Positions 2,212 through 2,922 of a stretch of 64,000 nucleotides of DNA are shown here, in pieces. Within the stretch, counting starts at the first letter, position 1. Each line of letters starts with the position of its first letter. The notes below the pieces were generated by a model that searched no databases, was not told where the DNA came from, and saw only the letters and a program-made list of their open reading frames with translations. This stretch comes from Archaeoglobales archaeon (lineage in GTDB: Archaea; Halobacteriota; Archaeoglobi; Archaeoglobales; Archaeoglobaceae). The DNA is taken from positions 1 to 64,000 of the forward strand of contig JASFYH010000005.1 of the NCBI GenBank assembly GCA_030055595.1, written 5' to 3'. The position numbers and the translations under genes were made by a program.

Positions 2212-2814
2212 TCAAAAGTCGAATAGAGTTCTCTGCTTCCTTTCCTTTTTGCATAACTCCCCTATTAGCCTGAAATGCTTCTCATAATCCTCTCTAAGCT
2301 GTGCTCTGTATAAAACCGCAGCTGGGTGAAATAATGGCACAATTTTGACTTTTTTGTTCCACTCCTCAACTTCAAAAACCTTTCCGCAGAGCTTTGTGAT
2401 CGATGTGAACTGAAGACCAAAGAACTCAAAGATGAACTTTGCTGAATGTCTGCCGAGACAGACTATAAGATCAGGTTTGAGAATGTTTAGCTGTCTAATA
2501 AGATACTCCCCACAGATCTCGACTTCCTCGGGTAGCGGATCACGATTGTTTGGTGGTCTGCACTTTAGAACGTTGCATATGTATACTTCTTCCCTTGTTA
2601 ATCCTATTAAAGAGAGCATTTCCGTCAGAAATTTCCCGGCACTTCCGACAAAAGGCTCTCCTTTAAGATCTTCTTCCCTCCCCGGAGCTTCGCCGACAAA
2701 AACGATCCCCGCTCTACTATTGCCTACTCCGGGAACGTATTTTGTCTTCGTCAAGTGCAATGAACATCTTTTGCAATTCAAAATCTCCTTAGTTAGATCA
2801 TCAAGGGTTTCCAT
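2212..2814 (-). CDS. udg: family 4 uracil-DNA glycosylase
   Basis: Removes uracil from DNA to start base excision repair of deaminated cytosine, a heavy load at high temperature. The 200-residue protein has the four Fe-S ligands of family 4 (C14, C17, C85, C101), the active-site motif GEAPGREED at 41-49 and the second motif HPAAV at 163-167. The last seven residues, QRTLFDF, fit the PCNA-binding consensus QxxLxxF. The start METLDDL is chosen by resemblance to the A. fulgidus enzyme as I recall it; longer in-frame starts lie inside a stable hairpin that I call separately as a guide RNA candidate. Tail-to-tail with hisH with one base between them. Confidence 0.93.
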   Translation of the reverse strand: METLDDLTKEILNCKRCSLHLTKTKYVPGVGNSRAGIVFVGEAPGREEDLKGEPFVGSAGKFLTEMLSLIGLTREEVYICNVLKCRPPNNRDPLPEEVEICGEYLIRQLNILKPDLIVCLGRHSAKFIFEFFGLQFTSITKLCGKVFEVEEWNKKVKIVPLFHPAAVLYRAQLREDYEKHFRLIGELCKKERKQRTLFDF

Positions 2815-2821
2815 AGCAATC

Positions 2822-2883
2822 ATCTGTAGCCCGTCGTGTGGGATCCCATTCATCTTCTTTCATGGGACGCATGGCTGACGGGC
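2822..2883 (-). ncRNA. candidate single-hairpin H/ACA guide RNA
   Basis: On the minus strand, bases 2883-2877 (GCCCGUC) pair perfectly with 2835-2829 (GACGGGC), and 2867-2862 (UCCCAU) pair perfectly with 2849-2844 (AUGGGA); a G-U pair can extend the upper stem. Between the stems is a large internal loop of 9 and 8 bases, like a pseudouridylation pocket. The 12-base terminal loop opens with GA and closes with UGA, as in an L7Ae-binding K-loop. An ACA triplet (2827-2825) follows the lower stem after one base, 15-16 bases from the top of the pocket, the spacing of archaeal H/ACA RNAs. A TTTTTAAT box at 2907-2914 could place transcription start at the hairpin's 5' end. The target is unknown. Confidence 0.55.
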
Positions 2884-2922
2884 ATCTCTTTATAGCCAAA
2901 GAAGATTAAAAATTTTTCTGTG

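Follow-up and report, generated by a model that had tools for sequence, protein, structure and literature searches.

We have analysed a stretch of archaeal DNA 64,000 nucleotides in length, referred to here as the window, and conclude with high confidence that its minus strand carries a gene for an archaeal box H/ACA sRNA, the orthologue of Afu-190 of Archaeoglobus fulgidus, which has its own TATA promoter and would be bound by L7Ae and Cbf5/Nop10/Gar1 and guide pseudouridylation of U996 in 16S rRNA. Expression of the RNA, RNP assembly and the modification itself are what we infer for this organism. The RNA is a further H/ACA guide, orthologous to one already described, and its only novelty is its place before udg, a gene of the uracil-DNA glycosylase superfamily. 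The features required for the argument, with the evidence for each, are the following.

2905 to 2918, minus strand: putative promoter, BRE-like GAAAAA at 2918-2913 and TATA-like TTTTTAAT at 2912-2905; upstream conservation.
2825 to 2884, minus strand: H/ACA guide sRNA, conserved part; covariance-model match of 79.7 bits in single copy, conservation and covariation.
2877 to 2883, minus strand: lower stem, 5' strand, GCCCGUC; fold and covariation.
2870 to 2875, minus strand: 5' guide element GCCAUG, complementary to 16S CAUGGC on the 3' side of the target U; unchanged in all 52 sequences.
2862 to 2867, minus strand: upper stem, 5' strand, UCCCAU; fold and covariation.
2850 to 2861, minus strand: K-loop, presumed L7Ae site; tandem G2861.A2850 and A2860.G2851, with U2852 before GA.
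2844 to 2849, minus strand: upper stem, 3' strand, AUGGGA; fold and covariation.
2838 to 2841, minus strand: 3' guide element CCAC, complementary to 16S GUGG on the 5' side of the target U; unchanged in all 52 sequences.
2829 to 2835, minus strand: lower stem, 3' strand, GACGGGC; fold and covariation.
2825 to 2827, minus strand: ACA box; ACA in 52 of 52 sequences.
2212 to 2814, minus strand: udg, with its start corrected to 2814; Pfam UDG at 8.9e-37 and comparison with relatives.

The conserved RNA, extending from 2884 to 2825 on the minus strand, reads UGCCCGUCAGCCAUGCGUCCCAUGAAAGAAGAUGAAUGGGAUCCCACACGACGGGCUACA. Its minimum-energy fold is the single hairpin that the initial annotation had proposed as an H/ACA guide on this strand (-22.4 kcal/mol, z = -3.1, 1 of 200 shuffled sequences being equally stable), with the stems, the K-loop-like terminal loop and the ACA all present. 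Both stems are as claimed there, the lower pairing 2883-2877 with 2835-2829 and the upper pairing 2867-2862 with 2849-2844 and being extended by the wobble G2868-U2843, and the arrangement of lower stem, pocket-type internal loop and upper stem is supported by the fold and by covariation in both stems. In the terminal loop, GA (2861-2860) and UGA (2852-2850) are invariant in an alignment of 20 sequences, consistent with a presumed K-turn fold of 2850-2861 serving as L7Ae site. The mature RNA may contain a few extra bases past the ACA.

Folding energy alone is weak evidence, being only moderately unusual, and comparison with relatives was therefore undertaken. A blastn search of 60 related genomes, using 331 nt around the hairpin as query, produced matches in 33, and in many of these conservation is confined to query positions 47-106, corresponding to window positions 2884-2825, at unrelated genomic places. 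A covariance model constructed from 20 of the blastn-matched sequences detects the RNA, always as a single copy, in 49 of the 55 Archaeoglobaceae genomes sampled. A. fulgidus has one such match, at 220967-221023, and when its genome was screened with a pattern requiring both guide elements and the ACA, 10 matches were obtained, of which only one, judged by eye, forms the hairpin. Of the four matching genomes outside the family, one belongs to a sister family, one to a different family within the class and two to a different family within the phylum; the remaining sampled genomes of the phylum gave no match under filters that can lose weak matches. In the two genomes from that other family of the phylum (L107 466-538 and L108 447-519) the upper part of the RNA is much longer and the guide bases are the same. 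A strict RNA pattern applied to named genomes matches only Archaeoglobus, Geoglobus, Ferroglobus and other members of the Archaeoglobaceae, Archaeoglobales or Archaeoglobi, which places the window in the Archaeoglobaceae. Within the family, the RNA gene has moved genomic place several times.

Compensatory changes in relatives, on which the initial annotation had staked its proposal, are abundant. In an alignment of 52 sequences (50 distinct) fitted to the covariance model, 99% of cells are standard pairs and 46 cells are compensatory, with two-sided changes in 8 of the 12 pairs, compared with a mean of 8.6 compensatory cells in shuffled controls and 1-3 when pairing partners were slid. A MAFFT alignment of 20 sequences, which was not fitted to the model, also contains compensatory changes, 14 cells in 6 of the 15 pairs tested. 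Rfam has no family matching the window at gathering score, a permissive E-value yielding chance matches only, and no match was obtained in A. fulgidus even at E values up to 1. We conclude that the hairpin represents a genuine small RNA gene with deep conservation among Archaeoglobus-type archaea.

Conservation within the pocket distinguishes the guide from its surroundings. An internal loop of 9 and 8 bases had been proposed as the pocket, and although the loop is present, the whole of it does not act as the conserved guide, which consists of GCCAUG (2875-2870) and CCAC (2841-2838); the base before GCCAUG may be A, C, G or U, and the two bases before CCAC and the one after it also vary among the 52 sequences. 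A bipartite rRNA site around a U had been correctly anticipated, but in the register GUGUGGG-U-N-GCAUGGCU, two positions off on each side; this target was dropped, as the bases outside GCCAUG and CCAC vary between species. Since only these two elements are conserved, the target becomes GUGG-U-N-CAUGGC. GCCAUG and CCAC are exactly complementary to 16S 5'-GUGG-U-G-CAUGGC-3', giving 4+6 Watson-Crick pairs around an unpaired U-N, and the site, with 4 bases before and 6 after the U, is present in every 16S examined, agreeing with the expectation of an rRNA match of at least four bases on each side of a U. The target uridine is number 996 in the 16S of the window organism, 1004 in the 1492-base 16S of G135, which we take to be A. 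fulgidus DSM 4304, and U1052 in E. coli. U996 belongs to helix 34 and precedes by two bases the equivalent of C1054 of the decoding site. C1054 contacts the A-site tRNA. On the 5' side of the target the duplex is short, 4 bp at -3.5 kcal/mol, which speaks against the guide reading; this value comes from ViennaRNA duplexfold and is not on the RNAsnoop scale to which the published -6.0 cutoff applies. When guide bases were permuted, 28 of 20,000 guides reached a perfect 4+6 site in 16S plus 23S rRNA, the 23S being that of a relative (G001) because the organism's own assembly (G000) lacks a detected 23S. This 23S gene was not found in an assembly with a stated completeness of 99%, probably reflecting an assembly gap. 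Very probably, as judged from this complementarity, the RNA directs pseudouridine formation at one 16S uridine.

An H/ACA guide could also have its main target elsewhere, at a tRNA, mRNA or 23S site. Weaker partial matches do occur at other places in rRNA, and some relatives contain extra genomic matches to the target pattern. Against this, an exact genome-wide pattern, by which alone the tRNAs were covered, finds GUGGUNCAUGGC once in the organism's own genome, within 16S, the 16S site is common to all 16S sequences examined, and 16S U1004 is the target published for the guide of A. fulgidus (PMC4652768). We consider a different main target very unlikely. Candidate 23S targets were rejected, showing only partial matches not common to all genomes. 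The 'LSU' loci scanned were ambiguous in strand and included the neighbouring 16S, and the 16S site therefore appears there too. In one genome (G009:C11:18255-20988, L041-L043) the 23S rRNA match is broken into five segments and parts of the model are left unmatched, which could reflect an insertion, divergence of the gene or a faulty assembly.

The reading as a guide for U996 can be compared with rules described for archaeal H/ACA RNAs. Productive guides have a stem of 10 layers between the second G.A pair and the pocket, followed by 14-15 nt to the ACA (PMC4652768). In the window RNA, 10 layers are obtained by counting A2860.G2851, G2861.A2850, six standard pairs, G2868.U2843 and the mismatch C2869/C2842, after which CCACA (5) and 9 further nucleotides lead to the ACA, describing a 10/5/9 fold with a 6-base 5' guide. 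Without G2868.U2843 and C2869/C2842, there are 8 standard layers in an 8/7/9 fold. The 10-layer count is an interpretation, since neither of its two lowest layers is conserved as a pair, and its dependence on a G.U and a mismatch counts against the guide reading. An ACA 15-16 bases from the top of the pocket, as originally noted, is correct if the count begins at the standard pairs of the upper stem, but CCAC itself starts 14 nt before the ACA, a spacing found in 50 of 52 sequences, so that the box lies within the 14-16 nt prescribed from the pocket-closing stem. The tandem G.A/A.G with UGA agrees, on sequence alone, with a K-turn or K-loop. Genes for Cbf5 and Nop10 are found in the genome of the window organism.

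Two described guides are close to this RNA. According to PMC4652768, Tang et al. 2002 showed that Af190 guides S1004 of A. fulgidus. Afu-190 and the window RNA share their target, 16S U1004 in A. fulgidus numbering, the likeness compared being that of target nucleotide. As U1004 is the target of Af190 and A. fulgidus contains one RNA of this type, the window RNA is almost certainly the orthologue of Afu-190, an assignment based on target nucleotide and single A. fulgidus copy. The A. fulgidus copy is flanked, judging from the translations, by a Cdc6/Orc1-like gene on one side and genes similar to an iron-transport regulator and FeoB on the other, whereas that of the window clade lies directly before udg. 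Pab19 of Pyrococcus abyssi has 16S U1017 as target and was first modelled as 8/7/9 with 16 nt from stem to ACA (PMC4652768). This first model is the arrangement of the window RNA when standard pairs alone are counted, and the Pab19 target, like U1004 of A. fulgidus, falls in the 1000-1020 range of 16S, a likeness limited to numbering and fold.

Conservation upstream of the RNA points to a promoter. In 51 aligned upstream regions, counted from the first base of the RNA, two elements are conserved, AA at -33/-32 and, at -28 to -22, a T/A-rich box resembling TTTTAAA. By sequence these elements are the BRE and TATA of an archaeal promoter, with a start that would fall at the 5' end of the RNA. Transcription would proceed from the RNA's own TATA promoter, starting at ~2884, L7Ae would bind the K-loop, Cbf5/Nop10/Gar1 would bind the pocket and ACA, and the guide would direct pseudouridylation of 16S U996 (A. 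fulgidus U1004, E. coli U1052).

The position of the RNA relative to udg depends on where the coding sequence begins. The longest udg open reading frame starts at 2853, within the guide RNA, and automatic annotation may therefore hide the RNA. The methionine at 2814 (METL...), 10 nt after the ACA in the window, is conserved in most relatives, and in G007 an in-frame stop codon is located just upstream of it; we therefore place the udg start at 2814, and the 2853 start is probably a gene-calling artefact. With udg starting at 2814 and not 2853, the coding sequence begins shortly after the hairpin. The ACA is located about 10-12 nt before the udg ATG in four genomes of this genus (G000, G001, G003 and G007), leaving no room for a separate udg promoter. 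This RNA-udg arrangement is observed in the window, L003, L004 and L005, in contrast to L006-L011 and L024. In several relatives with the RNA elsewhere, udg has, by eye, its own TATA-like box ~25-30 nt before the ATG, a position which suggests a leaderless message. Among 43 other genomes, 28 have T-runs after the RNA, and these are absent in the four. The lack of room for a udg TATA box, combined with the absence of T-runs, indicates that a single promoter probably serves both guide RNA and udg in the window's clade.

Proximity to udg raises the alternative that the hairpin acts mainly in cis, as an L7Ae-responsive leader of the udg mRNA, and not as a guide. The distance of 10-12 nt to the udg start in the four genomes and the lack of a separate promoter favour a leader, as does the action of L7Ae on a K-turn in the leader of its own message, described in the abstracts of PMC5539422 and PMC6298567. 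As in those leaders, a K-turn-type element is found close before a start codon; in contrast to them, the window element is a complete guide RNA and occurs without udg in most genomes. A leader has no need of an ACA box or a 16S-complementary pocket, and the invariant guide bases match 16S. A udg leader cannot be the main role of the RNA, which in most genomes is found away from udg, and this alternative is very improbable. The structured leader that the initial annotation had offered as a second reading survives as a possible additional role. That the hairpin is a functionless product of chance, as its moderately unusual folding energy (z = -3.1) might allow, is refuted by covariation and by conservation in 53 genomes and has a negligible probability.

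As an H/ACA guide, the RNA is significant in several respects. It represents a well-supported RNA family lacking in Rfam, with 52 aligned sequences from nearly all sampled Archaeoglobaceae, and it has a precise predicted target near the decoding centre. Its location 10-12 nt before the udg start in four genomes of the genus means that the guide RNA may also be the udg mRNA leader. We tentatively suggest, as a speculative possibility which we consider rather doubtful, that the guide RNA lies between promoter and udg start in one transcript, that its maturation would free a nearly leaderless udg mRNA and that assembly of the H/ACA RNP on this leader could link rRNA modification with the expression of an enzyme of uracil-DNA repair. 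The udg arrangement offers a testable example of a guide RNA that also serves as the leader of an mRNA.
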